Shown here: positions 29,174 to 50,277 of the stretch, piece after piece | Numbering within the stretch: position 1 is the first letter of the stretch | Layout: every line of letters starts with the position of its first letter | Source: Halalkalicoccus subterraneus | GTDB taxonomy: Archaea > Halobacteriota > Halobacteria > Halobacteriales > Halalkalicoccaceae | Length of the DNA: 64,000 nucleotides | Assembly: GCF_003697815.1 (NCBI RefSeq) | Contig: NZ_RDQG01000085.1 | Span: 186,001 to 250,000 of the forward strand | Direction of reading: 5' to 3' | Made by a program: the position numbers and the translations under genes | Notes under the pieces: generated by a model | The model's input: only the letters and a program-made list of their open reading frames with translations | Told to the model about the DNA's origin: nothing | The model's database searches: none

Positions 29174-30556
29174 TTAGTTATCGTCCCAAACGGGGCACTC
29201 GCGGGGAACGAACTCGCCGCGACCGGCCTCGCCGACGACGACTCCGTCGTCGGCAACGGGTTCTCCCCGGAGATACGTCCGCTTTACCCTCCCGGTGACC
29301 TCGCGACCCTCGTAGATCGTGTAGTCGGCGATTGAGGCGTTGTCTCGCGCCGAGATCGTGTACGTTTCGTCCGGATCGAACAGCACGATATCCGCGTCGG
29401 TTCCCGGTTCGAGGGTCCCTTTCTGTGGGAGGCCGAACGTCTGTGCCGGGTTCGCACACATCACGCGGACGAGGAACGGGTACGACAACCCGCGCTCGTT
29501 CACGGCCTCGTCGTGAAACACCGGCAGACTCGTCTGCAAACCGTTCGCACCGAAGGGGTCCTCCCACCACTCGCTGTTCTCCTTCCGGTCGCGGGTTTGT
29601 GCGACGTGATCCGTCGAAACGACGCTCAGCGCGCCCTTTCTGAGGTGTTCGAACATCGCGTCGGTATCGTCACCGGTGCGGATCGGCGGCGCGATCTTCG
29701 GAAGGGTCCCCAGCTCCTCGTATACCTCATCGGTCAGGGTCGTATAGTGCGTACAGGTCTCGCCACGAACGTGACTACCGTCGTCTTGGTATCGGGCGAG
29801 GGCGTCTGCTGCCTTCCGACAGGAGGTGTGAATGCCGTAGTACTTCGTGCCGGTTTCCCGTGCGAGCCTGGCGACGTCGTCCGCCGCCATCGCCTCCGCA
29901 TAATCGGGCCGGGCAGCGGGAAGCCACGTCGGATCGTCCCGGTCCGCAGCCCGGAATTCGGCAGTCAGCGATTCGCAGACGCTGTCGTCCTCCGTGTGGG
30001 CGACGCCGACCGCATCCAGCTCTCCAAGCCGTTCGAGCACTGCACGGATGAACCCGTTCGAGAGCCCGAACTCGTAGGTGGTGTACATCTTGAACGAGGT
30101 GATCCCCGACTCGACGAGGGACGCTAACTCGTCGAACAGCGCCGGATCCTCGCGGAGGATCCCGCCGTGCAACCCGAAATCGACGAGCGCACCCTCGCCC
30201 TTCCCACGCTTTCGCTCGACACCGTCGTGGAGCGTCCTTTCCTCGTCCCAGGGGCTCTCGTCGGTGACGTAGGACTGCCAGGCGAAGTCGATAACCGTCG
30301 TTACGCCGCCCAATGCGGCTGCGCTCGTCGCTCTTTCGTACGTATCGAGCGAGACGTGGTCGTCGATATGGACGTGTGGATCGACGACCCCCGGTAGTAC
30401 GAGAAGACCGGATGCGTCGACGGTTTGTTCGGCGTCCGGCATGGCGTGTCCGGCTCCGATACTGACGATCGTTCCGTCGTCTATTGCGATATCAGCCGCA
30501 CGGGTCGTCCGGGTGGTAACAAGTGTTCCTCCGCTAATCACCGTGTCGATGGCCAT
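29174..30556 (-). CDS. Allantoinase/dihydropyrimidinase-type cyclic amidohydrolase
   Basis: 460 residues from ATG 30556. Metal site of the hydantoinase family: 'GVVDPHVHIDDH' (HxH), 'SFKMYTTYEFG' with the carboxylated Lys, 'GVAHTEDDS' and 'YGIHTSCRKAA' (His), and 'SVVSTDHVAQT' (Asp). The C-terminal strand domain with 'GTLEPGTDADIVLFDPDE' is standard. Opening of allantoin to allantoate fits its neighbours best; hydantoin or dihydropyrimidine substrates remain possible. Divergent from iclR with 150 bases between starts containing a shared motif. A leftward TATA (ATTATATAG) lies about 25 bases upstream. Confidence 0.88.
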   Translation of the reverse strand: MAIDTVISGGTLVTTRTTRAADIAIDDGTIVSIGAGHAMPDAEQTVDASGLLVLPGVVDPHVHIDDHVSLDTYERATSAAALGGVTTVIDFAWQSYVTDESPWDEERTLHDGVERKRGKGEGALVDFGLHGGILREDPALFDELASLVESGITSFKMYTTYEFGLSNGFIRAVLERLGELDAVGVAHTEDDSVCESLTAEFRAADRDDPTWLPAARPDYAEAMAADDVARLARETGTKYYGIHTSCRKAADALARYQDDGSHVRGETCTHYTTLTDEVYEELGTLPKIAPPIRTGDDTDAMFEHLRKGALSVVSTDHVAQTRDRKENSEWWEDPFGANGLQTSLPVFHDEAVNERGLSYPFLVRVMCANPAQTFGLPQKGTLEPGTDADIVLFDPDETYTISARDNASIADYTIYEGREVTGRVKRTYLRGEPVADDGVVVGEAGRGEFVPRECPVWDDN

Positions 30557-30648
30557 CACTCGCGTTTCCGCACACGGCTATATAATTGGTTGTGCTCCAC
30601 CGGAATACTAATGATGGGGCGAGAACACCGGAACGAAACGCGAACGTA

Positions 30649-30664
30649 TTTGTATATATTGAAC
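30649..30664 (+). promoter_or_regulatory. TTTGTATATA motif, copy 3 (iclR/allantoinase divergent promoter)
   Basis: TTTGTATATATTGAAC, ending 42 bases before the iclR start and about 90 bases upstream of the divergent amidohydrolase. It contains a TATA sequence and is imperfectly dyadic (TTGTATA/TATTGAA), so it could be both core promoter and IclR operator. Confidence 0.55.
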
Positions 30665-30706
30665 AACAACGAACTATTGAAGTGAGTCGGGTTCGGAGAC
30701 GGCTCT

Positions 30707-31525
30707 ATGCCGCCCACCGGTACGAAATCCGATCCACGGACGTTGACCACAGTGCTCAACGCGATCGAGATCACGCGTGCGCTCATGCGTCTCGATGGAG
30801 CGGGGGTGACGGAACTCGCGGACCACCTCGACGAATCGAAGAGCACGACGTACACCTATCTCAAATCGCTCGAGAAAGGCGGTCTCGTTACGAAAGCCGA
30901 TGACGACTATCGGCTATCGTACGAGATGCTGATTTTCGGCGAGTACGTGCGCAATCAGAGCCTCCTGTATACGATCGGCAAATCCGAAATAGACGGTTTG
31001 GCAGCGGAAACGGGCCAGTACGCACACCTAGTCGTGGCTGAAAACGGGCGCGGTCATAACCTGTACAAATCGAAGGGGGACCGAGCAGTCGGGGAGGACT
31101 ATCAAACGGCCAAGTTCCAGCAGCGAGATTACCTCCATATCACCGCTTCCGGGAAGGCAATCCTCGCGTACCTCCCCCACGAGCGGGCCGAAGAGATCAT
31201 CGGCCGCCATGGGCTCCCCGCTCGTACCGACCGAACGATAACCCATCGGGAACGCTTGTTCGAAGAGTTGGACGAGATACGCGAACAGGGCTACTCGCAC
31301 AACGACGAGGAGGAAATCGAGGGGTTCCGAGCTATCGGCGCTCCGATCAGGTCCCGCGACGAAGCGGTGCTTGGCTCGATAAGCGTTTCCGGTCCGAAAA
31401 GCGTGTTCGGCGACGAGTCCGAGTACCAGGAGATCGTCGACCTGGTGGTCAACACGGCGAACGTCATCGAGGTGAACGTGAATATGTCCACGAGGAGTTC
31501 GGAGATAATCGAAGACGAGAACTGA
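30707..31525 (+). CDS. IclR-family transcriptional regulator of the purine cluster
   Basis: 272 residues. The N-terminal winged helix ('LNAIEITRALMRLDGAGVTE', 'DESKSTTYTYLKSLEKGGLV') is followed by the IclR effector domain ('HITASGKAILAYLPHERAEEI', 'EEIEGFRAIGAPI', 'GSISVSGP'). Haloarchaeal IclR proteins control catabolic clusters in response to small substrates. Its position between the allantoinase-like gene and the permease, with a repeated motif before it and before the permease, makes it the likely local regulator. Effector perhaps allantoin, urate or xanthine (inference). Confidence 0.9.
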   Translation: MPPTGTKSDPRTLTTVLNAIEITRALMRLDGAGVTELADHLDESKSTTYTYLKSLEKGGLVTKADDDYRLSYEMLIFGEYVRNQSLLYTIGKSEIDGLAAETGQYAHLVVAENGRGHNLYKSKGDRAVGEDYQTAKFQQRDYLHITASGKAILAYLPHERAEEIIGRHGLPARTDRTITHRERLFEELDEIREQGYSHNDEEEIEGFRAIGAPIRSRDEAVLGSISVSGPKSVFGDESEYQEIVDLVVNTANVIEVNVNMSTRSSEIIEDEN

Positions 31526-31950
31526 GTATCGGCGTCCGACCCATTGTATGGTCTTTGCTCACGTCTCATACGATATCGCCCGAAAACGGTACGAGAATGG
31601 TCACGGCAATCACGTACAGCTCCGGGCGGTACGTAATACGTTACTATCCACTTCTGCTGTCATCCCAAGCCCAGATATTCGTAAAGATAGACCTATAGTT
31701 GGTGTATACTCAGTTATTCGGGACGAGTCGGATTACAACAGTACGAGCGTAACTAAATCCCATGAGCGTTCTCGGGGGATCGACTGACGAGAAAACCGCA
31801 CCGGGTGGCGCAATCGTGTTTGTATATATCGAACGATGTCCTGACCGTACTATCATCTGCGGTCAGTCCACCGCTCTCCGTTGGTCGAATTCCCGGAAAC
31901 AGAATGATGCAAAGGTTTAACAGGGTGCATACGTATCTCCCGATTGGAAA
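31526..31950. other. Intergenic region before the NCS2 permease
   Basis: 425 bases with no convincing gene. It contains motif copy 4 at 31819-31834. The last 40 bases before the permease start are AT-rich. The distance from motif to start (116 bases) would leave a longer leader than usual for this organism. Confidence 0.4.
31819..31834 (+). promoter_or_regulatory. TTTGTATATA motif, copy 4 (permease upstream region)
   Basis: TTTGTATATATCGAAC, 116 bases before the permease start codon; one mismatch to the copy before iclR. Confidence 0.5.
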
Positions 31951-33321
31951 ATGTCCAATGAACGCGGAAAAGAGATCAATTTAGAATACGGTCTCGACGA
32001 AAAACCACCATTACCGAAATCAATTCTCCTCGCATTACAACACGTGTCCGTCATGATCGTCCCCTCGACCGCGGTCGCGTTCATCGTCGCGGGGGCCGCG
32101 GGACTGGGCGCTGGCGATACGACGTATTTGGTCCAGATGGTGATCCTGTTCGCCGGAATCGCGACCGTGGTACAAGCGTACACCGTCGGCCCGGTCGGTG
32201 CGAGGCTCCCGATCGTCATGGGAACGAGCTTCGCCTTCGTGGGAGCGATGAGTTCTATCGGCGCGAGTTCCGGTCTCGACGTCGTCTTCGGGTCGATCGT
32301 CGTCGCGGCGACCGTCGTCCCTTTCCTGCTCGGGTGGCAGTTCAATCGGCTCCAATCGTTCTTCCCACCGCTGGTCACGGGGCTGATCGTGGTCATCATC
32401 GGACTCTATCTCATCCCCGTTGGAATGGAGTACGCCGCGGGTGGTGTGGACTCGGCCGGTTTCGGCGCGCCGTATAACCTCGCGCTCGCCGCGTTGGTGC
32501 TGGGAATCACCGTCGCGTTCAACCTGCTTCTAAAGGGGGTTTGGCGAATGATGAGTATTCTCATCGGTATCAGCGTCGGCTACGTCGCTGCGATCGCACT
32601 CGGGCTGGTCGATTTCATGCCGGTCGCCGATGCGGCGTGGATCACGATCCCAACGCCGGGTGAGTTCGGATTCAGCTTCGAGCCGATTCCACTGGTTACG
32701 TTCGCGTTCCTGTTTTTCGTCTCGGGGATGGAAACGATCGGCGATATGTCCGGGATCACCGCGGCGGAAGGACGAAACCCGACTGCGGACGAGTTTCGCG
32801 GTGGGATCTTCGCCGATGGGTTCATCAGCGCGATCGGCGCCGTCTTCGGATCGTTTCCCCAGACCTCCTTCTCACAGAACGTCGGTATCATCAACTTCAC
32901 CGGGATCATGAGCCGACACATCGTCGGGATCGGCGGCGTCATCCTCGTCGTGCTCGGGCTCGTTCCGAAGATCGGGGCGATCGTAACGACCATTCCCACC
33001 GCCGTCTTCGGGGGCGCAGTGCTGGTCATGGTGGGGATGGTGGCCGCGAGCGGAATGCGGTTGCTGTTCTTGAACGTCGAGATGAACCGCCGGAACATGG
33101 TCATCGTCGCGACCGCGCTCGGCCTCGGACTGGGTGTCGCGACTGTGCCTGAGGCACTCGCCGAGCTGCCTGCCGGCGTGGGGACCTTTTTCGGCGAGCC
33201 GGTGATCATGACCGGTCTGGCTGCACTGCTGTTGAACACGTTCGTTCCGGGCCACTCGAGTCCCCTGTTCGATGCACCCGAGCGCGTCCCGCCGCTCTCC
33301 GAGCCCGTCGACGACGACTGA
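31951..33321 (+). CDS. NCS2-family uracil/xanthine permease
   Basis: 456-residue membrane transporter with ~14 helices. Conserved features: 'ALQHVSVMIVPSTAVAFIV' at the start, the QH motif of the first helix, 'FVSGMETIGDMSGIT' and 'GSFPQTSFSQNVGIINFTGI', the NCS2 substrate-site helix with 'QN'. The xanthine/urate subgroup is favoured by the catabolic context and by 'TGIMSRHIVGIGG'. It would import xanthine, urate or related bases by proton or sodium symport to feed the cluster. Confidence 0.92.
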   Translation: MSNERGKEINLEYGLDEKPPLPKSILLALQHVSVMIVPSTAVAFIVAGAAGLGAGDTTYLVQMVILFAGIATVVQAYTVGPVGARLPIVMGTSFAFVGAMSSIGASSGLDVVFGSIVVAATVVPFLLGWQFNRLQSFFPPLVTGLIVVIIGLYLIPVGMEYAAGGVDSAGFGAPYNLALAALVLGITVAFNLLLKGVWRMMSILIGISVGYVAAIALGLVDFMPVADAAWITIPTPGEFGFSFEPIPLVTFAFLFFVSGMETIGDMSGITAAEGRNPTADEFRGGIFADGFISAIGAVFGSFPQTSFSQNVGIINFTGIMSRHIVGIGGVILVVLGLVPKIGAIVTTIPTAVFGGAVLVMVGMVAASGMRLLFLNVEMNRRNMVIVATALGLGLGVATVPEALAELPAGVGTFFGEPVIMTGLAALLLNTFVPGHSSPLFDAPERVPPLSEPVDDD

Positions 33322-33361
33322 TCCGTGAGCCCCTCGCGAAGCTCCCTCGAAAGGGGATCCG

Positions 33362-34780
33362 CTATGCGATGTTCGCTCTCCCGACGAGGTCCTCGGCGGC
33401 CGCCGTGGCCGCCGCAAGAACCGCGGGCAGTTCCCCGTCGATCCCGGTGATCTCGCGATCCTCCATGACAACAGTTCCCGCACAGAGGACGGTTTCCACT
33501 TCGGAGCCCCGGGTGCCGTAGACGAGCGCGTGGACGGGATCCGGCGACGGGGTGAGATGTGGTTCGTCGAGATCCAAGACGGCAATATCGGCCTGCTTGC
33601 CCGACTCTATCGAACCGAGAGTATCGGCGCGTCCGATAGCCGTAGCGGCATCGCGGGTCACCATATCGAACGCCCGTTGGGCGGGAACGACACCGGGGTC
33701 CCGATGGAAGCCCTTGTGTGCCGTCGCGACGCCACCGGCGTCAGAAAGGGGGTTGACGGTGTCGTTCAGGATCGAGTTGTCCGTCCCGATCGCCGTCAGT
33801 ACGCCCTTGTCGAGCATCGAGACGACCGGTGCGAACCCGGTCGCCAGCCGCATGTTCGCCCGGTAGTTGTGCACGACCGCCGTTCCGGACCGTGCGAGCA
33901 GTCGGACGTCGCGGGCGTCAGTCTGGACGCAGTGACCGAGCAGTGCGCGGTCGCCGAGACAGCCGATGTTGCGGAGATACTCGATGCTCGAGAGCGCGCC
34001 GCGCTCGCGCACCTCGGCTTTCGCCTCCGCGACGTGGGTGGTCGTCATCACGTCGTACCGCTCGGCGAGCCGATACGCGCCCCGGAGAGCGTCCGCCGTG
34101 GTCGTCGCGAGCGTTGCGGGCGCCGGCCAGACCGATTGTCTGCCCGCAGGGTCGTGAAACTCCTCGATGAGAGCCACGGTGTCCTCGAGGGCGTCGTCGG
34201 TCTCGACGACGAGCGCGTCGGGACCCGGATGGGGGACATCGGGATCACGCGCAGTGACGTCCTCGAACAGTTGTTCGAACCCTTCGTCCGGCGCGAGGTC
34301 CCTGATACCGGCGCCGTAGACGTTCCGAACACCCATCTCGTCGTATACGTCGAGCTTGCGTCGGGTCGGCTCGAGGTCCGTCCAGTCGAGCGCCGTGTCG
34401 TTCTCGACGAACGTCGTCGTTCCCGACCGTAACGCCTCGATACAGTACAACCGCGCCGCGAGCGCGTGCTCTTCGGGACCCATCTCGAAGAGTGCGGGTT
34501 GTTTCACGTTGAACAACCAGTCGTACAGGCCCCGATCCTGTGTGAACGCCCCTCGCAGAAGGATATCGGAGACGTGCGTATGCGCGTTGATCAGCCCCGG
34601 TATCACGACTCGGCCATCGATGTCGAGCGTTCGAGCCGGCGACGTGTCGGCCTCGAGTCGATCGGCCGGACCGACGTCGGAGATCCGGTTGCCGGTGATC
34701 GCAACCGCGCCGTCGGTAATGATCCGTCTGTTCTCGTCCTGCGTGACGATCGTCCCGTTGGTTAGTAGCGTATCGGTCAT
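33362..34780 (-). CDS. Guanine-deaminase-like amidohydrolase
   Basis: 472 residues of the chlorohydrolase/guanine deaminase/MTA-SAH deaminase superfamily. Zinc ligands: 'LINAHTHVSDILL' (HxH), 'MTTTHVAEAKAEV' (His with Glu), 'RALLGHCVQ' (His) and 'LTAIGTDNSILND' (Asp). Next to xanthine dehydrogenase, deamination of guanine to xanthine, or of a related purine, is the best guess; hydroxydechloroatrazine-type or 8-oxoguanine deaminases share the fold. Convergent with the permease gene and 80 bases downstream of the xdh large-subunit stop on the same strand. Confidence 0.82.
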   Translation of the reverse strand: MTDTLLTNGTIVTQDENRRIITDGAVAITGNRISDVGPADRLEADTSPARTLDIDGRVVIPGLINAHTHVSDILLRGAFTQDRGLYDWLFNVKQPALFEMGPEEHALAARLYCIEALRSGTTTFVENDTALDWTDLEPTRRKLDVYDEMGVRNVYGAGIRDLAPDEGFEQLFEDVTARDPDVPHPGPDALVVETDDALEDTVALIEEFHDPAGRQSVWPAPATLATTTADALRGAYRLAERYDVMTTTHVAEAKAEVRERGALSSIEYLRNIGCLGDRALLGHCVQTDARDVRLLARSGTAVVHNYRANMRLATGFAPVVSMLDKGVLTAIGTDNSILNDTVNPLSDAGGVATAHKGFHRDPGVVPAQRAFDMVTRDAATAIGRADTLGSIESGKQADIAVLDLDEPHLTPSPDPVHALVYGTRGSEVETVLCAGTVVMEDREITGIDGELPAVLAAATAAAEDLVGRANIA

Positions 34781-34860
34781 GATGTCGATGGTACTCCCAT
34801 CGGTTCGGTCGACCGCGCTAAACTCGTTTCGACTGTAAGAGGAGAGTCACGGCGCGCCGG

Positions 34861-37299
34861 TCAGTTCTCGTCGAGTTTCGCCCGTATCTTCTCGGCGGTG
34901 ATCGGCAGCTCGCTGATCCGAACCCCGACCGCCCGACGAATCGCGTTACTCAACGCCGGAGGAACGGCGTTAACGGGGATCTCGGCGACGGACTTCGCGC
35001 CGAACGGTCCCGTCGGCTCGTGGGTTTCGACGAGGATCGATTCGAGGGGGGGCTGATCGGCCGTCGTCGGCATTCCGTAGTCGCGAAAGCCGAGCGTCTC
35101 GGGCGTGCCGTCCTCGTCAAACGAGAGGCCCGCGGAGGTAGCCAGCTCGTAGCTCATGTGCATCGCGCCGTCGACTTGTCCCTCGGCGAGGTCCGGATTG
35201 ATCGCGACGCCGCAGTCGACCGCGAAGACGAGTTCGTGGATCTCGAACTCGCCGGTTTCCTCGTCCACGGTCACGTCCGCGAACTGCGCGCCGAAGGGCG
35301 GCGGCGATTCGTCCGTCGAGAAGCTCGCCTGTCCCATCACCTGTGCACGCAGTTCGTCGCCGTAGATCGACTCGTAGCCGATCTCCTCCATCGTGACCGA
35401 CTCGCCCGTCCGTTCGGAGAGCACCGCTCCGTCGCGCGTTTCGAGCGCCTCCGCCGATTCGTCGAGCATCCGCGAGGCGAACTCGAGCAGTTGGTCGCGT
35501 GCGTCCTCGGCGGCCTTCTTGACCGCGCTCCCGGTGACGTACGTCGTCGAGGAGGCGTACGCACCGTAATCGAACGGCGAGATATCGGTGTCCGATGGCT
35601 GAACGAGGACGTCTTCTGGTTCGACTCCGAGCACTTCGGCGGTGATCTGGGCCATCGCGGTGTCGGCTCCCGGCCCGATATCGACGGCCCCGGTCTGGAG
35701 GATGAACGAGCCGTCCTCGTTCATCTTGATGTGTGCGGCGCCGAGTTCGTCGCCGGCGACGCCGCTTTTCTGTGCGGTGAGGGCGACGCCGCAGGCCCGA
35801 TGGAGGTGCTCCTCGTCGGGCTGTTTGACGTCGTCCCAGCCGATGGCGGCCTTCCCGCGGGCGATGCACTCGTCGAGACCGCACGAGCGAATCCGGCGGA
35901 CGTGTTCGCCGTTCGTCGTGACACCCGACGCGGTGTCGAGATCTCCTTTCTGGATGTGGTTTCGCGAGCGGAGTTCGAGGGGGTCCATTCCCAGTTCGTG
36001 GGCGACTTCGTCCATGTGCCCTTCGAGCGCGAAATGGCCTTGGGGAGCCCCGTAGCCGCGTATCGCACCCCCGATCGGGAGGTTCGTGTGCACGGCTTTC
36101 ATCTCGAATCGGATGTTCGGCGTGTGCGTGTACAGCGGCAGCGGTTTCGTCGCGATCGAACCGGTTACCGTCAGTCCATGGGGACCGTACGCACCGGAGT
36201 TCGTGATCGCCGACATGTCGAGTGCCTCGATGTCGCCCTCGTCGGTGACGACGCTTCGCAGACGGATGCGGGCGGGACGCCGCGAGCGCATCGCGTAGAA
36301 CTCCTCTCGGCGCGTGGCCTCCAGTTTCACGGGCCGGTCGGCCGCGAGCATCAACGCCACCGTGATGGGTTCGATCAGCATCGACTGCTTGGAGCCGAAC
36401 CCGGCGCCGATCCGCGGTTTCGTTACCCGGACGTCTCGAATCGGAACGTCGAACAGGTGCGCGAGCTGCCGGCGCGTGTGGTACGGCACCTGCGTGCTCG
36501 TGACGAGGTGAAACCGGTTGTCCTCGTCGCGGTGGGCGATGGTCGTGTGCGGCTCGGGCACGCAGTGGGATTGGTACGGTGTTTCCCACTCGGTTTCGGT
36601 GACGACCCAATCCTCGCGGGTTTCGGCCTCCTCGAACGCCGCATCGACGTCGCCGATCTCGCCTTCAGTGTGAGCCTCGACGTTTCGTTCGTAGTCCGCA
36701 CCCGGCTGGGCGTTCTCCACCCGGTCGGGATCGTGTATCCGCGGCGCGTCAGGCTTCATCGCATCTTCGGGATCGAAAACGGCGTCCAACTCGTCGTACG
36801 TGACGTCGATCGTCCTGATGGCTCTGTCGGCGATATCGCCGTTCTCGGCGGCGACGGCGGCGATCGGATCGCCGACGAAACGCACCGTCCGCCGGAGTAC
36901 GTGCAGATCCCACGGGCTCGGTTCGGGATACGACTGTCCCGCGGAGGTGTACACCGCATCGGGCACCGTCTCGGAGTCCGGTGTGATGACCGCGTGGACG
37001 CCATCCATGGCCTCGGCGGCGCTCGTATCGATTTCGGTCACGTACCCGTGGGCGATCTCCGAGCGCAGGACCGCCGCCTCGGCGAGATCGGGATAGTTCT
37101 GCGCGTAATCGGCGGTGTATTTCGACTCGCCCGTGACGATCTTGCGGGCGTCGGTTTTCTCCTCGCGTTTGGAAATGGCCCGTCGATCGCTCTCTGCCTT
37201 TCTATTGTTCGGCGTTTCGGCCCATTCGAGGGGATGGTCGGTCTCGGCCGACGAGGACTGTTGCTGGTCGTCCTCGTGCGGCTCGTCGGTTCTACTCAC
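34861..37299 (-). CDS. Xanthine dehydrogenase/CO dehydrogenase-family molybdenum subunit
   Basis: 812 residues with the two-domain fold of the molybdopterin-cytosine-dinucleotide subunit. Segments seen include 'GESKYTADYA' near the start, the MCD-binding 'RIGAGFGSKQ', 'GGAIRGYGAPQGHFALEGHMDE' and the catalytic Glu region 'GPFGAKSVAEIPVNAVPPAL'. Surrounded by uricase and guanine-deaminase genes, it most likely hydroxylates xanthine (and hypoxanthine) to urate. The N-terminus is longer than usual, acidic and rich in Gln/Ser. Overlaps the iron-sulfur subunit stop by 4 bases. No FAD subunit gene is adjacent. Confidence 0.9.
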   Translation of the reverse strand: MSRTDEPHEDDQQQSSSAETDHPLEWAETPNNRKAESDRRAISKREEKTDARKIVTGESKYTADYAQNYPDLAEAAVLRSEIAHGYVTEIDTSAAEAMDGVHAVITPDSETVPDAVYTSAGQSYPEPSPWDLHVLRRTVRFVGDPIAAVAAENGDIADRAIRTIDVTYDELDAVFDPEDAMKPDAPRIHDPDRVENAQPGADYERNVEAHTEGEIGDVDAAFEEAETREDWVVTETEWETPYQSHCVPEPHTTIAHRDEDNRFHLVTSTQVPYHTRRQLAHLFDVPIRDVRVTKPRIGAGFGSKQSMLIEPITVALMLAADRPVKLEATRREEFYAMRSRRPARIRLRSVVTDEGDIEALDMSAITNSGAYGPHGLTVTGSIATKPLPLYTHTPNIRFEMKAVHTNLPIGGAIRGYGAPQGHFALEGHMDEVAHELGMDPLELRSRNHIQKGDLDTASGVTTNGEHVRRIRSCGLDECIARGKAAIGWDDVKQPDEEHLHRACGVALTAQKSGVAGDELGAAHIKMNEDGSFILQTGAVDIGPGADTAMAQITAEVLGVEPEDVLVQPSDTDISPFDYGAYASSTTYVTGSAVKKAAEDARDQLLEFASRMLDESAEALETRDGAVLSERTGESVTMEEIGYESIYGDELRAQVMGQASFSTDESPPPFGAQFADVTVDEETGEFEIHELVFAVDCGVAINPDLAEGQVDGAMHMSYELATSAGLSFDEDGTPETLGFRDYGMPTTADQPPLESILVETHEPTGPFGAKSVAEIPVNAVPPALSNAIRRAVGVRISELPITAEKIRAKLDEN

Positions 37300-37820
37300 T
37301 CGTTCTCACCTCCGCTCCGCTCACAGGGCGCGTCACCACCGTCGGTGGCGACGGTCCGCTCGTCGTTCATTCGACCGGCGGCGTCCTGCACGGCGTCGAT
37401 GATCTTCTCGTAGCCGGTGCACCGACAGAGGTTTTCGGAGAGCCCCTCGCGGATCTCGGTCTCGGTCGGATCGGGGGTCGCCTGCAGGAGGCTTCGCGTT
37501 TGCATGATCATCCCGGGGATACAGAACCCACACTGGAGGGCGGCGTTGTCCACGAACGCGGCTTGGATGGGGTGGAGATCGTCCTGGGTGCCGAGACTCT
37601 CGATCGTTTCGACGTCCGCTCCGTCGATGGTAGCAACCGGCTTGATACAGGCGCGTTCGGGTTCGTCGTCGACGGCTACGGTACAGAACCCACAGTTACC
37701 CGTATCACAGCCGCGTTTCGCACCGGTATACCCGTTGCGTCGGAGGACGTCGAGAAGCGACTCCGAACGTTCGGCTTCGAACGTTCGGTGTGTCCCATTC
37801 AACGTAATGTCTATTTCCAT
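37296..37820 (-). CDS. [2Fe-2S] subunit of the xanthine dehydrogenase-family enzyme
   Basis: 174 residues from ATG 37820 (MEIDITLNGT). The plant-ferredoxin-like cluster 'GAKRGCDTGNCGFCTVAVDD' and the helical second cluster domain ('ALQCGFCIPGMIMQ', 'LSENLCRCTGYEKI') give all eight Cys ligands of the CoxS/XdhC-type small subunit. It relays electrons from the Mo site. First gene of the leftward pair; a TATA-like element lies near 37845-37858. The C-terminal ~20 residues are an acidic extension. Confidence 0.93.
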   Translation of the reverse strand: MEIDITLNGTHRTFEAERSESLLDVLRRNGYTGAKRGCDTGNCGFCTVAVDDEPERACIKPVATIDGADVETIESLGTQDDLHPIQAAFVDNAALQCGFCIPGMIMQTRSLLQATPDPTETEIREGLSENLCRCTGYEKIIDAVQDAAGRMNDERTVATDGGDAPCERSGGENE

Positions 37821-38218
37821 GGGTATAGACTGTTCATGTGCGACGATAATACATATATGTGGCGGTCGGTTCACAAATCGATATACACGGTCAGGAATTC
37901 GTGACGTTCCACCACGGTTGGGATCCTCGGATACATCGGACGGTCTCTCAAGGAGAGCCTCCCGCTCGCGGTTATGGCGGTCGTTGACGCCGAAGGAGCT
38001 GCCTACCGACGACCCGGAGCCGAGACGGTGGTGGGTCCGACGGGCCGTTTCAGGACGAGGTACTGCCGGCTATCTCCGAGATCCGCTGTGGGCCTATCGG
38101 TTCGAGAGCTGTCCAGCCATAGAGATCTGATATAACGCAGTAGCCATCGCTACTACTCTTTGGTCGTCCCGTTACTAAATACTCGTCCCCTCTACTAACC
38201 ACGATTGCGGACGCAGAA
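37821..38218. other. Gene-free interval
   Basis: 398 bases between the divergent iron-sulfur subunit gene and the small ORF at 38219. It contains an AT-rich promoter-like sequence near 37845-37858 and nothing else that I recognise. Confidence 0.35.
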
Positions 38219-42367: not shown

Positions 42368-42631
42368 TTACTCACGGAGATCTTTCGATCGAAGTTCACC
42401 TCTCGCATACCACGTTCGAGGGCGAACAGCCGCAATAACTGCACCAAGATAGAACAATCCAACAACGGCTATGACTACTACACCAGGGAGAATACCGACT
42501 GCAGCACTCGCTGTCCATGCTCCCGCATCAAAGGCCGTTATATGGACGAGCCATACAGCAAGCAATACCGCGAGTAACGGCAGATACACACGTCGAAGTC
42601 GGTGTGCAATGGCCTCCTCGGCGGTGCACGC
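42368..42631 (-). pseudogene. C-terminal remnant of a DUF2270 membrane protein
   Basis: The last ~85 codons encode two membrane helices ('RRVYLPLLAVLLAVWLVHIT', 'GILPGVVVIAVVGLFYLGAV') like the C-terminus of haloarchaeal DUF2270 proteins, which are normally about 220-250 residues. Upstream of ~42631 the frame stays open but turns into arginine/serine-rich sequence without the expected N-terminal part, so the gene looks truncated. A short functional protein is less likely. Confidence 0.5.
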
Positions 42632-42824
42632 GAGAACGCGGTCGGAAACGCCTGCGGATCGTCGTCCTCCTGATGCCGGACGGGACCGACCAGGACGAGA
42701 CGCTCGAGTACACGGCAGAATCGCTCGCGACGCCACACCGTTCACACCGCTGTAATCGTCGCCGTACTCCGCCGAGGACCTGTCGAGGGAACCCGTTTTT
42801 ACCAAGGAAATCGAAGCCTGAACC

Positions 42825-44069
42825 ATGCCACACACGTTGGTCGTCGCAGACGACCTCACCGGTGCGACCGACACCGCCCACGCGTTCGCGAAACGAGGTT
42901 ACGAGACGGCGGTACAGGTCGACTCCGACCGAACACCACCGGATGCGACCGTCCTCGCGGTCACTACCGACTCCCGGTACGTCGACCCCGAGATCGCCGC
43001 AGACCGGGTCCGAGGGGCGATCGAAACGACCGACACGAGGGCCGTCTATAAGAAGGTCGACTCGACGCTTCGGGGGAACGTCGTCTCCGAGATCCGGGGT
43101 GCGATGTCCTATGGCTTCGATCTCGCCCTCTTCGCGCCCGCCTCGCCCGCTCTCGGCCGGATCACGGCTGGCGGCTACCACCTCGTCGACGGTCAGTTAC
43201 TTACTGATACCGAATACGCAGACGACCCGAACGGTCCTCCGAATGCGCACCTGCCGACGCTCTTGGCCGAAGCCGAGTCTCCCATCGAACCTCTCGGAGT
43301 CGAAGTCGTCGCCGCCGGATCTGAATCGATTCACGAGGCGCTCGCCGAGGTTCCGTCCGGCGCGCTCGTCGCCTGTGACACGACCCACGAGCGGCACCTC
43401 GAAGCGATCGCACGGACGGACAGCGAACTCGACGGCCCGACGCTCTACGTCGGGAGCGCCGGCCTCGCCGCACACGTTGCCGTTTCGGGCGAACTCGATA
43501 GCGAGCCCCGCCGAATCGCCGGCGACGGAGGATCTCTGGGGATCGTTGGCAGCGTCAGCGAGCGCTCGTTGGACCAACTCTCGACCCTACCTACCGAGTG
43601 GGTACTCGCGCTCGACCCCGAGGAGATGCTCGCCGATCCCGAGGATGCGGGCCGGAAGGCGGGCCAGCGGACCACGAAACGTCTCGCAAACGGCGAGCAC
43701 ACCGTCGTCACGGCCGCACAGGACCGGGAGGCGGTCGATCGAACGCTCGAACTCGGTCGGGAGGGCGGCCTCGACGACGAGGTGACCAAAACGCGGGTCG
43801 CCAACGCGCTCGCGAGCGCTGCGCGGACGGGGATCGAGGAGGCGGCTGGGCTGTTCGTTACCGGTGGGAACGTCGCGATGGCCGTCTTCGATGCGCTGGA
43901 GGTGAGAGCGCTTTGTCTTTCGGGCGAGGAGATCGAGGCGGGAATCCCGGTCAGTCGGCTCGACGGTGGAATCGCTGACGGCACCCCAGCCGTCACGAAG
44001 GCGGGTGGGTTCGGACACGAGGGAACAGTAATTAACTGCCTGCGATTCCTCGGTAACGACCATGAGTAA
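42825..44069 (+). CDS. dtnK: Four-carbon acid sugar kinase (DtnK/OtnK type, DUF1537)
   Basis: 414 residues. The N-terminal domain begins 'LVVADDLTGATDTAHAFAKRG', the substrate motif of the DUF1537 family, and continues 'YKKVDSTLRGNV'. The C-terminal nucleotide domain has 'TGGNVAMAVFDAL' and 'PAVTKAGGFGHEG'. These kinases phosphorylate C4 acids such as D-threonate or D-erythronate. The stop overlaps the start of the PdxA2-like gene by 8 bases, the classical DtnK-PdxA2 arrangement, which makes a threonate/erythronate 4-phosphate route likely. First gene of a three-gene operon. Confidence 0.88.
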   Translation: MPHTLVVADDLTGATDTAHAFAKRGYETAVQVDSDRTPPDATVLAVTTDSRYVDPEIAADRVRGAIETTDTRAVYKKVDSTLRGNVVSEIRGAMSYGFDLALFAPASPALGRITAGGYHLVDGQLLTDTEYADDPNGPPNAHLPTLLAEAESPIEPLGVEVVAAGSESIHEALAEVPSGALVACDTTHERHLEAIARTDSELDGPTLYVGSAGLAAHVAVSGELDSEPRRIAGDGGSLGIVGSVSERSLDQLSTLPTEWVLALDPEEMLADPEDAGRKAGQRTTKRLANGEHTVVTAAQDREAVDRTLELGREGGLDDEVTKTRVANALASAARTGIEEAAGLFVTGGNVAMAVFDALEVRALCLSGEEIEAGIPVSRLDGGIADGTPAVTKAGGFGHEGTVINCLRFLGNDHE

Positions 44070-45090
44070 GCCCACGATCGGAATCACGATGGGTGACCCG
44101 GCCGGGATCGGCCCGGAGATCGTCGTCAAGGGATATTGCGAGCTTCGGGAGACCGCTGACGTGCTGGTGATCGGCGACGCCGGGGTCGTCGAGAGCGCCT
44201 GCGGGATCTGTGGGTCGGACCTCGGCGTCGAGCGGATCGGTTCGCCCACCGAGGCGTCGTTCGAGCGCGAGCGAATCCCTGTGCTCGATCTGGACAACGT
44301 CGCCGACTTGGAGCGCGGCATCGTCCACGAGGCGTACGGAACGGCGAGTCTGGAGTATATCGAGCGAGCGATTTCGCTCGCTCAGTCCGGCGCAATCGAC
44401 GCGATGGTGACCGCCCCGATCAACAAGCAGTCGACTGAACTCGCGGGCAGCGAGTATGCGGGCCACACGGGGATGCTTGCCGACTACACGGGTACGGAAA
44501 ACTACTCGATGATGCTGATCGAGGGCGATCTCCGGGTCACGCATGTCAGCACCCACGTCCCACTGCGAGAGGCCTGCGACCTCGTGAGCGAACAGTCGGT
44601 GCTCGACACCATCCGGGTGACCGACGAGGCGCTCCGTGAACTGGGCGTCGAGGAGCCGACGGTTGCGGTCGCAGGACTGAACCCCCACGCGAGTGATGGA
44701 GGGCTGCTCGGCGAGGAAGACAGTGAAGAGATCGAGCCCGCCGTCGAGAGAGCTCGTGAAGAAGGGATCGACGCCTTCGGGCCCGAATCCCCGGATACGG
44801 TTTATATACAGGCCGCTCGCGGCGCGGCGGACTGCGTCGTCTCGATGTATCACGATCAGGGCCACATTCCCATCAAGATGCTCGGCTTCGCGGAGGGCGG
44901 GGCGGTCTCGGGGGTCAACGTCACGATCGGCCTGCCGATCATTCGTACCAGTGTCGACCACGGTACCGCATTCGACATCGCGGGCGAAGGGGTCGCCAGC
45001 GAGCAGAGCCTGCTTCAGGCCGTCGAGGTCGCGAGCGAGATGGCGCGGGCTCGAGACGGGGCAAGCCTCGAAGCGGGTGACGCAGCGTGA
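44062..45090 (+). CDS. pdxA2: PdxA2-type 4-phosphotetronate dehydrogenase
   Basis: 342 residues of the PdxA fold. 'GITMGDPAGIGPEIVVK' opens the protein, metal His residues lie in 'AGHTGMLADYTG' and 'MYHDQGHIPIKMLGF', and 'VNVTIGLPIIRTSVDHGTA' closes the active site. Paired with a DtnK-like kinase, it should oxidise and decarboxylate D-threonate/D-erythronate 4-phosphate to dihydroxyacetone phosphate, unlike PdxA of vitamin B6 synthesis, which archaea with the PdxS/T route do not need. It overlaps both flanking genes. Confidence 0.87.
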   Translation: MSKPTIGITMGDPAGIGPEIVVKGYCELRETADVLVIGDAGVVESACGICGSDLGVERIGSPTEASFERERIPVLDLDNVADLERGIVHEAYGTASLEYIERAISLAQSGAIDAMVTAPINKQSTELAGSEYAGHTGMLADYTGTENYSMMLIEGDLRVTHVSTHVPLREACDLVSEQSVLDTIRVTDEALRELGVEEPTVAVAGLNPHASDGGLLGEEDSEEIEPAVERAREEGIDAFGPESPDTVYIQAARGAADCVVSMYHDQGHIPIKMLGFAEGGAVSGVNVTIGLPIIRTSVDHGTAFDIAGEGVASEQSLLQAVEVASEMARARDGASLEAGDAA

Positions 45091-46391
45091 ACCTCAAGTT
45101 TCCCGACGGCGATACCCTTCGGGGTGCCAATGACGTCGAGCGCGAGGACCTGCCCCGGTTCGCGCGGGCGACCCGCCACCGGGACCTTGAGTCGATCGAG
45201 GACGTTGAGGGGGTCGCCCGCCGGGCCGTCTCGAAGCTACCCCTCGACGCGCTCGACTCCGGCGCGGAGGTTGCAATCACGGCCGGGAGCCGTGGTATCC
45301 ACGACATGCCCACACTGCTGGAAGCGGCGGTCGACGAACTTCGCGAGCGTGGGTTTGAACCCTCCGTAATCGCGGCGATGGGTTCGCATGGCGGGGCGAC
45401 CAGCGAGGGCCAACGCGAGACGCTCGAATCGCTCGGCATCACCGAGGACCGTTTGGAGTGTCCGATCCGTACCTCGATGTCGGTCGCGGAGATCGGACGC
45501 GATGGTCTGGACCGGCCGGTCTACGTTGCGGAGGACGCGCTCGACGTCGATGGCGTGATCCTCGCGAACCGGATCAAGCCGCATACGGATTTTCATGGAC
45601 CTGTCGAGAGCGGACTCTGCAAGATAGCGGTGATCGGACTTGGAAAACACCGCGGCGCGGAGTCGCTTCACAACGCCGGGCTGGCGGCCGACTTCAGCGA
45701 GGTCATACGGGAACGAGCCGAACTGATCATCGAAGAGAGTCCTATCCTGGGTGGGCTCGGGTTGATCGAGAACGCCGCCGACAGGGCGAGCCATATCGAA
45801 GGTGTCCCCGCGGACCGGATTCTAGGGCGCGAACCGGAACTGCTTGACCGTGCGCGCGAGGAACTCCCGATGCTACCCGTTTCCGATCTCGACTTGCTAA
45901 TCGTCGACGAGATCGGCAAGGACGTCTCGGGGACGGGTATGGACACTAACGTGATCGGACGGGTGCTGTTTCACGGCGAGGACGAACCCGATAGCCCGAA
46001 CGTTACTCGGATTTATGCGTGTTCGATCACGCCCGCCTCGCACGGTAACGGACTGGGGCTCGGGCTAGCCGACTTCGTCCACCGGGATATGGTCGCGGAT
46101 CTCGAACTCTCGGACATGTACGTCAACATCGTCACCAGCGGCGAAACCTCACGGGCACGCATTCCCTTCGTCGTCCCCGACGACCTGACGGCCCTGATCC
46201 TCGCCTGCTCGACGACGGGGGTCGCGGATCCAACCGAACTCCGGGTCGCCCGGATCGAGAACACGATGGAACCCGACGACCTGCTCGTCTCGGAGGCCGT
46301 CGCCCGTGAACTGGAGGGGCGAGCGGACGTCGCGGTCGGCCCGCTTGAAGCGCTCGGATTCGAGGACGGGACGCTCCCCTCTCTCGATTGA
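45087..46391 (+). CDS. LarA-like nickel-pincer racemase family protein (DUF2088)
   Basis: 434 residues, GTG start at 45087 overlapping the pdxA2 stop. The N-terminal DUF2088 domain keeps ligands used by lactate racemase for the nickel-pincer cofactor: His101 ('MGSHGGAT'), His166/His170 ('KPHTDFHG'), Lys179 ('SGLCK') and His188 ('GKHRGAES'). LarA homologues racemise or epimerise 2-hydroxy acids. In this operon it could convert a tetronate stereoisomer into the form accepted by the kinase, which is not a described pathway (inference). No larB/larC/larE cofactor genes are in the window. Confidence 0.8.
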   Translation: MNLKFPDGDTLRGANDVEREDLPRFARATRHRDLESIEDVEGVARRAVSKLPLDALDSGAEVAITAGSRGIHDMPTLLEAAVDELRERGFEPSVIAAMGSHGGATSEGQRETLESLGITEDRLECPIRTSMSVAEIGRDGLDRPVYVAEDALDVDGVILANRIKPHTDFHGPVESGLCKIAVIGLGKHRGAESLHNAGLAADFSEVIRERAELIIEESPILGGLGLIENAADRASHIEGVPADRILGREPELLDRAREELPMLPVSDLDLLIVDEIGKDVSGTGMDTNVIGRVLFHGEDEPDSPNVTRIYACSITPASHGNGLGLGLADFVHRDMVADLELSDMYVNIVTSGETSRARIPFVVPDDLTALILACSTTGVADPTELRVARIENTMEPDDLLVSEAVARELEGRADVAVGPLEALGFEDGTLPSLD

Positions 46392-46596
46392 GTCGAGTTA
46401 CTGGGACGGAAATTCCTTTGGAGGTAATGCCCGGGTCGGCATAACCGTATCAGACTGTTCGTTTACTGGCGTGCTGTGCCCGATCGTCACTTCCTTTGAT
46501 GAAGGCGAAGGCGACGAGAAGTCTATGCTCTGTCTGTAGCGCTGGGCAACCCCAGCCGATCATCTGCGGCGGGTTCCAATAGAGCCATGTGGACAG

Positions 46597-48898: not shown

Positions 48899-50277
48899 TC
48901 ACTCATCACTAGGCAATGTCTTGCCGGGATTCATGATTCCTGTTGGATCGATTATATTCTTGATGTCGTTCATGACGTCAACGCCGTCGCCGTGTTCCTG
49001 GCGCATGAATTTTCGCTTCCCAATCCCGATTCCGTGTTCGCCTGTGGCGGTTCCACCGAGCTCGAGTGCTTCGCTCACGATCGCGTCGGTCAGTTTCTGT
49101 ACGCGATTCATGGCCGCCGGATCGTCCGTATCGACTATCGGCAGGAAGTGGATGTTTCCATCGCCCGCGTGTCCAACACACGGCGTCAGTAGTTCGAGAT
49201 CATCGCTGATCGTTTCAATTTGGCGGACGATCTCGGAATACTTCGAGATCGGAACGACGACGTCGCCGATGACGCCGACAGTCTGATCAGTGTAGTATTC
49301 ACACGCAGCTGGATACGCGTCTCGGCGCGCACGCCAGATTGACTCGATATCGTCAGTATCGGCCTCCGTCCACTCGATCGCATCATGGTCGTCACAGATC
49401 GCTCGTACACGATTCATCTGTGTGCTGAGATCACCGCTGTTGCCGTGCAGTTCGATCAACAAAGCGGCCCAACCGGGAAGTCGGCATCGTTATTGTAATC
49501 GTTGAGCAACTCGACCAGCTGTGTGTCCATGAACTCAAGTGCGCCTGGTTTGAGGCCTGACGCCATGATGGTCGAGACGGCTTGACTGGCGGCCACACTC
49601 GATGGAAACGTCACGAGTGCAGCATGGCGATGTTGAGCGATACCTTCCAAGGAGAGTGTTGCCTCCGTGATCACGCCGAGTGTTCCTTCACTACCGACAA
49701 AGAGATCCTTGAGGTTGTATCCGGCCGTACTTTTCGGGACGTCGCGACCACATTCGATGATCCGTCCGTCAGGGAGGACGACCTCCAATCGAAGAACGTG
49801 ATCACCGGTTACACCATAGCGGACTGCATTGAGACCACTCGCGTTGTTCGCGATCATGCCGCCGATCGTTGCGATATCGCCCGCGGCGATACCCGGTGCA
49901 AATCGGAGGTTATGCGGTGCTAAGACTGCGTTCAGATCATCGTAGACGACCCCCGGACCGACAACAGCCTGGAGATCGTCGTTCCGAACCGTGATCTCGT
50001 CGAACTCGTAGGTATTGAGGACGATTCCACCGGCGACGGGAATTGGATTTCCTTCGATACTGGTTCCACCGCTCCACGGTGTCACTGGAACCGAGCGCTC
50101 GTTTGCTTCGGTCAGAAGTGCAGCGATCTCCTCTACCGAATCGGGCCAGACGACGACATCGGGTCGGTGGGGTTTATGTGGTCCTTCATCCTTCGAATGA
50201 GCCTCGAGAACGTCTTCAGCGGTGCTAATGCGACCATCGGTAACGGCGTCAGCGACAAACGAACAGTCGTATTCCAT
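48899..50277 (-). pseudogene. FAD-linked hydroxyacid oxidase (GlcD-like), single frameshift
   Basis: The upstream part (50277 to 49456) encodes a complete FAD-binding PCMH domain ('VVVWPDSVEEIAALL', 'PVTPWSGGTSIEGN', 'GDIATIGGMIANNASG', 'DLFVGSEGTLGVITEATL'). At 'DADFPVGPLC' the frame ends at TGA (49456-49458). The next frame resumes at once with 'LIELHGNSGDLSTQ' and runs through the C-terminal domain ('PCVGHAGDGNIHFLP', 'GEHGIGIGKRKFM'). One base gained or lost near 49460 explains it. If restored, it would oxidise D-lactate or glycolate. The BASS transporter gene lies 77 bases upstream on the same strand. Confidence 0.8.

Follow-up and report, generated by a model that had tools for sequence, protein, structure and literature searches.

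D-threonate is degraded through DtnK, which phosphorylates it at O4, and PdxA2, which oxidises C3 with loss of C1 and so yields dihydroxyacetone phosphate; this pathway and its DUF1537 kinases were reportedly described by Zhang et al. in 2016. L-threonate and D-erythronate reach the same intermediate through OtnK, OtnC and OtnI acting with LtnD or DenD. LarA enzymes, for their part, invert C2 of 2-hydroxy acids. The window analysed here, a stretch of 64,000 nucleotides from the haloarchaeon Halalkalicoccus subterraneus, brings these families together in an operon of three open reading frames (ORFs), all on the + strand at 42825-46391, the third of which encodes a LarA homologue of isomerase group 22:

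42825-44069, + strand: four-carbon acid sugar (DUF1537) kinase, by similarity closest to D-threonate kinase; 414 amino acids, SBD_N and NBD_C domains
44062-45090, + strand: PdxA-family protein, putative 4-phosphotetronate dehydrogenase, PdxA2-like; 342 amino acids, TIGR00557
45087-46391, + strand: LarA homologue, nickel-pincer nucleotide (NPN) isomerase group 22, proposed tetronate 2-epimerase; 434 amino acids, GTG start, NF052515

Consecutive genes overlap by 8 and 4 bases, as a preliminary description of this DNA had noted, and the ORF coordinates agree.

We consider it probable that this operon is a D-tetronate catabolic unit, in which the LarA homologue would be a nickel-pincer C2-epimerase for D-erythronate and D-threonate, feeding the kinase and PdxA. 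LarB, LarE and LarC would make the NPN, and the group-22 protein would bind it and epimerise C2 of a tetronate, most likely interconverting D-erythronate and D-threonate, with a proton-coupled hydride transfer between H101 and H166 as its chemistry. Phosphorylation of D-threonate at O4 by the kinase would follow, and PdxA would oxidise C3, C1 being lost as CO2 to leave dihydroxyacetone phosphate. Because the PdxA step erases the chirality of C2, an epimerase placed upstream would make a single kinase and a single dehydrogenase sufficient for both epimers, and the kinase is for the same reason the likely stereochemical gate. Gene order, fold, cofactor genes, catalytic residues and association are the observations from which we infer the binding of NPN and the reaction with its substrate and direction.

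Association of the LarA homologue with the kinase and PdxA

Our sample comprised 391 haloarchaeal genomes. Group 22 was found in 179 of them, with up to four matches per genome (two full copies and two fragments in the window genome), and PdxA in 64. Haloferax volcanii gave matches to both. The clade of the window protein, set by a search with that protein at an identity of at least 54%, comprises 48 copies in 46 genomes, 45 of which copies (window included) were read in longer stretches. PdxA is present in 45 of these 46 genomes versus 19 of the 345 others (Fisher p 1.4e-42, kinship uncorrected). It lies no more than 5 kb from 31 of the 48 LarA copies, and no more than 100 kb away on the same contig for 43.

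The same association emerges from a LarA tree of 158 rows, built by a quick method with SH-aLRT support, on which the partners were called near when PdxA lay within 3 kb and the kinase anywhere in the stretch. In clade C, to which the window protein belongs (50 rows, support 100), both are near in 31 rows and one of them in 4; for one of these four, from Haladaptatus halobius, the second partner appears in a longer stretch. The two haloarchaeal sister clades, A with 33 rows and B with 28, whose stretches are mostly best-scoring group-22 matches and not a random draw, have both partners near in 0 of 61 rows. The separate bacterial clade D (Bacillaceae, Rubrobacter, Bacteroidota and other bacteria) has them near in 13 of 21, the kinase being about 4 kb off in two Alkalihalobacillus-type rows and one Bacillota row. 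Conservation of the triplet had been suggested as a check in the preliminary description, and the link between LarA, kinase and PdxA proves to be kept in haloarchaea and to reappear in bacteria within a separate LarA clade. The window genome's other full group-22 LarA (contig C5; L042 / L046) is a clade-B protein with no kinase or PdxA near it.

A neighbour survey, in which the ORFs of 131 stretches were clustered and given Pfam names, placed the kinase in 35 of 50 clade-C and 13 of 21 clade-D stretches, and PdxA in 32 and 13 of the same sets. The few kinase and PdxA counts under clades A and B all come from one Haladaptatus region that carries copies of several clades, clade C included. A permease of the GntP family, to which that of the E. 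coli tetronate operon also belongs, is near LarA in 13 of 50 clade-C and 5 of 21 clade-D stretches and in none of the clade-A or clade-B stretches. In 8 clade-D stretches there is also a gene for a PrpR-type sigma-54 activator. In Haladaptatus QDMS2, which bears PdxA and has no clade-C copy, a LarA of another clade (labelled DUF362) lies about 4 kb from the kinase and PdxA.

Gene order varies, from kinase-PdxA-LarA to LarA-kinase-cupin-PdxA, on the same or opposite strands and with LarA first or last, so that the link has evidently survived rearrangement. Rubrobacter indicoceani has the window's order, with PdxA and LarA overlapping by 4 bases; LutABC-type lactate oxidation genes adjoin this operon on the other strand (L240:4603-11263). 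In some bacterial loci (L132, L137 and L150) LarA comes first, followed by the kinase and PdxA, and the kinases share only 26-29% identity with that of the window. Recurring as it does across genera in several gene orders, the triplet arrangement is not due to chance. Long frames that might have been taken for LarA gene fusions (for example 780 amino acids in G132) were rejected as such in five stretches, where the spacing of the PdxA and LarA hits is out of frame.

The history of the window copy bears on the same question. Downstream of the triplet, five congeners have an intact gene of the dihydrodipicolinate synthase (DHDPS) family, hereafter the aldolase gene, and then GntP on the other strand; a DHDPS-family gene also adjoins LarA in some Haloferax relatives. 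The similarity of the window to these congeners begins, in blastn, at 42615-42618 for four of the five and at 42838 for the fifth, and stops at 46518-46523, leaving 28 codons of the aldolase gene. Two further features thus flank the operon:

42615-42824, + strand: conserved upstream stretch, probable operon promoter region (blastn against congeners)
46453-46536, + strand: 28-codon remnant of the DHDPS-family gene (tblastn 64% over congener residues 14-41, E 1e-6)

None of the window's flanking genes that were tested is found near the operon in the congeners. Another contig of the same genome, C33, is collinear with congener G225 across the ancestral operon site (L047:7808-9049), where the kinase, PdxA, most of larA and GntP have been lost and a decayed 3' part of larA and an intact aldolase gene are kept. 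The remnant on C33 shares 78% and 69% nucleotide identity with the window copy, and for that reason the latter was not simply moved from C33 recently. Two GntP permeases are encoded elsewhere in the window genome, 54-57% identical to one from a congener. That the three genes have been kept together, and intact, at a new site without the aldolase gene argues that they form a working unit.

Downstream of the operon lie a glycolate-oxidase-like FAD-linked oxidase (48899-50277, - strand) and a transporter of the bile-acid-symporter type. We did not count them in the unit, as they are on the opposite strand, the oxidase is split, and neither is near the operon in the five congeners. The break in the oxidase falls within its C-terminal domain, parts of which are encoded by each of two overlapping ORFs; this suggests a frameshifted gene or a sequencing error. 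Further upstream, 29174-37874 resembles a purine or pyrimidine catabolic cluster, with a dihydropyrimidinase-like protein, an IclR regulator, a uracil/xanthine-type permease, an amidohydrolase and molybdenum hydroxylase subunits, these ORFs being judged by eye and a profile test being made for the IclR protein only.

Protein families, catalytic residues and cofactor genes

The kinase has both domains of its family (Pfam SBD_N, 162.6 bits; NBD_C, 89.1 bits) and matches PDB 4xfm over its full length (E 2e-38). It scores 92.5 bits on the 3-oxo-tetronate kinase model, and we class it as a DUF1537-type kinase nearest to DtnK. The second protein is a member of the PdxA family (TIGR00557, 362.7 bits against a cut-off of 290.35). 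It aligns in phmmer, at 267.7 bits, with the D-threonate 4-phosphate dehydrogenase of PDB 6e85, an alignment in which H165, H209 and H264 are conserved; following the ligand assignment of E. coli PdxA, we take these to be the metal-binding histidines. The tetronate assignment of the two proteins, which rests on subfamily similarity, is a putative one. A role of the operon PdxA in vitamin B6 synthesis was considered and rejected, since PdxS is encoded in the same genome and the vitamin can be made without the operon protein.

The LarA homologue passes the cut-off of the NCBIfam model "nickel pincer cofactor-dependent isomerase, group 22" (NF052515, 484.9 bits; cut-off 400) and is barely above that of Pfam Lar_N. 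Direct PDB searches with the protein and with a 27-row profile gave no match. An AlphaFold2 model made from a 41-row alignment (mean pLDDT 93.2) retrieved 18 chains with Foldseek at E <= 0.001, all of them LarA-family structures. In a structural aligner, LarA, Mar2 and related entries reached Z 19.2-21.1 over about 300-330 residues, the next family reaching 6.6. The third protein, as modelled, has the LarA fold.

Using as a bridge to PDB 5huq a canonical, lactate-racemase-like LarA homologue from Lederbergia, we found that hhalign pairs R69, H101 and H166 of the window protein with R75, H108 and H174 of LarA, its phosphate-binding arginine and two catalytic histidines. These three residues are invariant in all 158 group-22 rows examined, as are K179 and H195, which are 16 residues apart like K184 and H200, the lysine tether and the nickel-ligand histidine of LarA. 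The profile alignment stopped at H166, so the assignment of K179 and H195 draws on their invariance and on this spacing. The preliminary description, which had proposed a nickel-pincer epimerase, listed H101, H166, H170, K179 and H188 as kept residues. Its view of a LarA-fold, NPN-type protein with both catalytic histidines holds, and H101, H166 and K179 are indeed invariant; H170 and H188 are variable (H188 is replaced by Q in 17 of 50 clade-C and 28 of 28 clade-B rows), and the invariant R69 and H195 were not listed. The invariance of H195 and the variability of H188 make the former, and not the latter, most likely the nickel-ligand histidine.

LarA groups 14, 15 and 17 are without the second histidine (PMC12611868), and the window protein, which keeps both H101 and H166, differs from them in this. 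Two residues past H166, at the position of F176 in LarA, every clade-C row and every linked clade-D row has D168, as do 26 of 28 clade-B rows; polarity at this point would be in keeping with a substrate that bears several hydroxyl groups. A column comparison for specificity residues singled out only R356 and A230, which clades C and D share and in which A and B differ from them. Of the two, R356 could be a substrate contact; as it is frequent in other rows too, we do not rely on it.

The preliminary description would have taken absence of the nickel-pincer biosynthesis genes as refuting its reading. That refutation fails, since larB, larC and larE are all present in the window genome above their cut-offs; one contig carries larB and larE, separated by 7 kb, and a different one carries larC. 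All 46 haloarchaeal genomes with a clade-C LarA have larC, as do 333 of the 391 overall.

Weighing the tetronate reading

Several points weigh against a D-tetronate unit. The families named in the preliminary description were borne out by profiles for the kinase, PdxA and LarA homologue, but the D-threonate equivalog cut-offs were missed: the best NCBIfam model of the kinase, that of D-threonate kinase (NF047819), gives 235.6 bits, under its cut-off of 450, and the D-threonate-4-phosphate dehydrogenase equivalog (NF002891) gives 297.1 bits for the PdxA-family protein, its cut-off being 583. Kinship inflates the co-occurrence test of PdxA and LarA. For 17 of the 48 LarA copies PdxA is more than 5 kb away, on another contig or absent, and 15 of the 50 clade-C rows have neither kinase nor PdxA within the limits used. 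The neighbours of some clade-C copies, whether mandelate-racemase-like enzymes, an aldehyde dehydrogenase or a DHDPS-family protein, fit a larger sugar acid as well. We found in the literature no measured activity for any group-22 protein, and the authors of PMC7583248 caution that the genome context of LarA groups can mislead.

The choice of neighbours leads to the alternative, which we regard as unlikely, that the LarA homologue epimerises a larger aldonate or uronate-derived acid and that the kinase and PdxA are adjacent since sugar-acid genes cluster in islands. The clade-C copies concerned are those of Halarchaeum and Halomarina, which stand beside mandelate-racemase-like enzymes, aldehyde dehydrogenase, IclR or aldo/keto reductase, together with the several clade-C loci in which a DHDPS-family gene is next to LarA. 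In Sulfitobacter, larC and an altronate dehydratase-family gene flank a group-22 LarA (L239:8405-12489), which suggests that this branch acts on another sugar acid. However, no other partners shared by clades C and D come near the kinase and PdxA in frequency, and under A and B these two are confined to the Haladaptatus region that also has a clade-C copy. Moreover, in Halarchaeum CBA1220 a second LarA on the same plasmid overlaps a kinase with PdxA next to it, and in the window genome it is the aldolase gene that is truncated while the three genes are intact.

We think it improbable that the kinase prefers D-erythronate, like DenK, with LarA converting D-threonate to D-erythronate, or that LarA acts on 4-phosphotetronate or an L-tetronate. 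Both D-erythronate and D-threonate kinases are found in the DUF1537 family (PMC10971088), and the profile score leaves the substrate of the window kinase unsettled. Nevertheless, the D-threonate model outscored the 3-oxo-tetronate model in all four kinases scanned, haloarchaeal and bacterial; since the NCBIfam matches included no model for D-erythronate kinase, this bears on the DenK-like case only indirectly. As for a phosphorylated substrate, the LarA substrates characterised in the literature consulted are unphosphorylated. It is very improbable that LarA serves the FAD-linked oxidase as a racemase of lactate, glycerate or some other small acid, its place in the operon being incidental: such oxidases are common LarA neighbours (PMC7583248) and this one is 2.5 kb away, but its gene is split into two frames and it was seen in none of the other clade-C stretches read.

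For many LarA groups no substrate has been assigned, and in the 2020 screen genome context was, by its authors' account, often uninformative; the context of clade C is unusually strong and points to one concrete reaction. If the D-tetronate reading is true, it would add a nickel-dependent step to four-carbon acid catabolism and give a physiological substrate to a LarA group now without one. It would also give a use to the NPN cofactor genes kept by many haloarchaea, and an archaeal setting for genetic testing of an NPN enzyme.

Comparison with described systems

In the literature searched we did not find LarA joined with DtnK/PdxA2, nor a LarA tetronate epimerase other than for 4-deoxy compounds (PMC11770544), Table S1 of PMC7583248, which gives genome contexts and may list a group-22 link, being outside the search. 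The 4-deoxy case is that of LarA homologues which epimerise 4-deoxy-D-threonate and 4-deoxy-D-erythronate in vitro, slowly. The gene families and the LarA group were thus already known, and the pathway link between them is, as far as searched, the new part.

The window operon resembles the DtnK/PdxA2 D-threonate pathway in having a DUF1537-type kinase followed by a PdxA-family dehydrogenase, with dihydroxyacetone phosphate as predicted product (PMC10971088, PMC9997740, the latter describing a role of PdxA2 in organic-acid catabolism). It departs from it in its third overlapping gene, for a LarA-type NPN isomerase, and in its archaeal proteins, which do not reach the equivalog cut-offs of the bacterial models. 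By its score the third protein belongs to LarA group 22, and it keeps the catalytic residues and the putative cofactor residues; whereas that group is named without a substrate, the present finding gives one of its clades a pathway context. By analogy, D-gluconate 2-epimerase GntE (LarAH19, LarAH20) also prepares a sugar acid for a downstream route through LarA-type epimerisation at C2, but its substrate has six carbons and it belongs to another LarA group with other partners. For the wider proposal, that clade C and the bacterial clade D are nickel-pincer D-erythronate/D-threonate 2-epimerases serving a redox-neutral tetronate route in archaea and bacteria, we see the balance as even. Such a route would end, like those of OtnK/OtnC/OtnI with LtnD or DenD, at dihydroxyacetone phosphate; where the latter use a C2 dehydrogenase and an isomerase, that of the window would need one redox-neutral epimerase.

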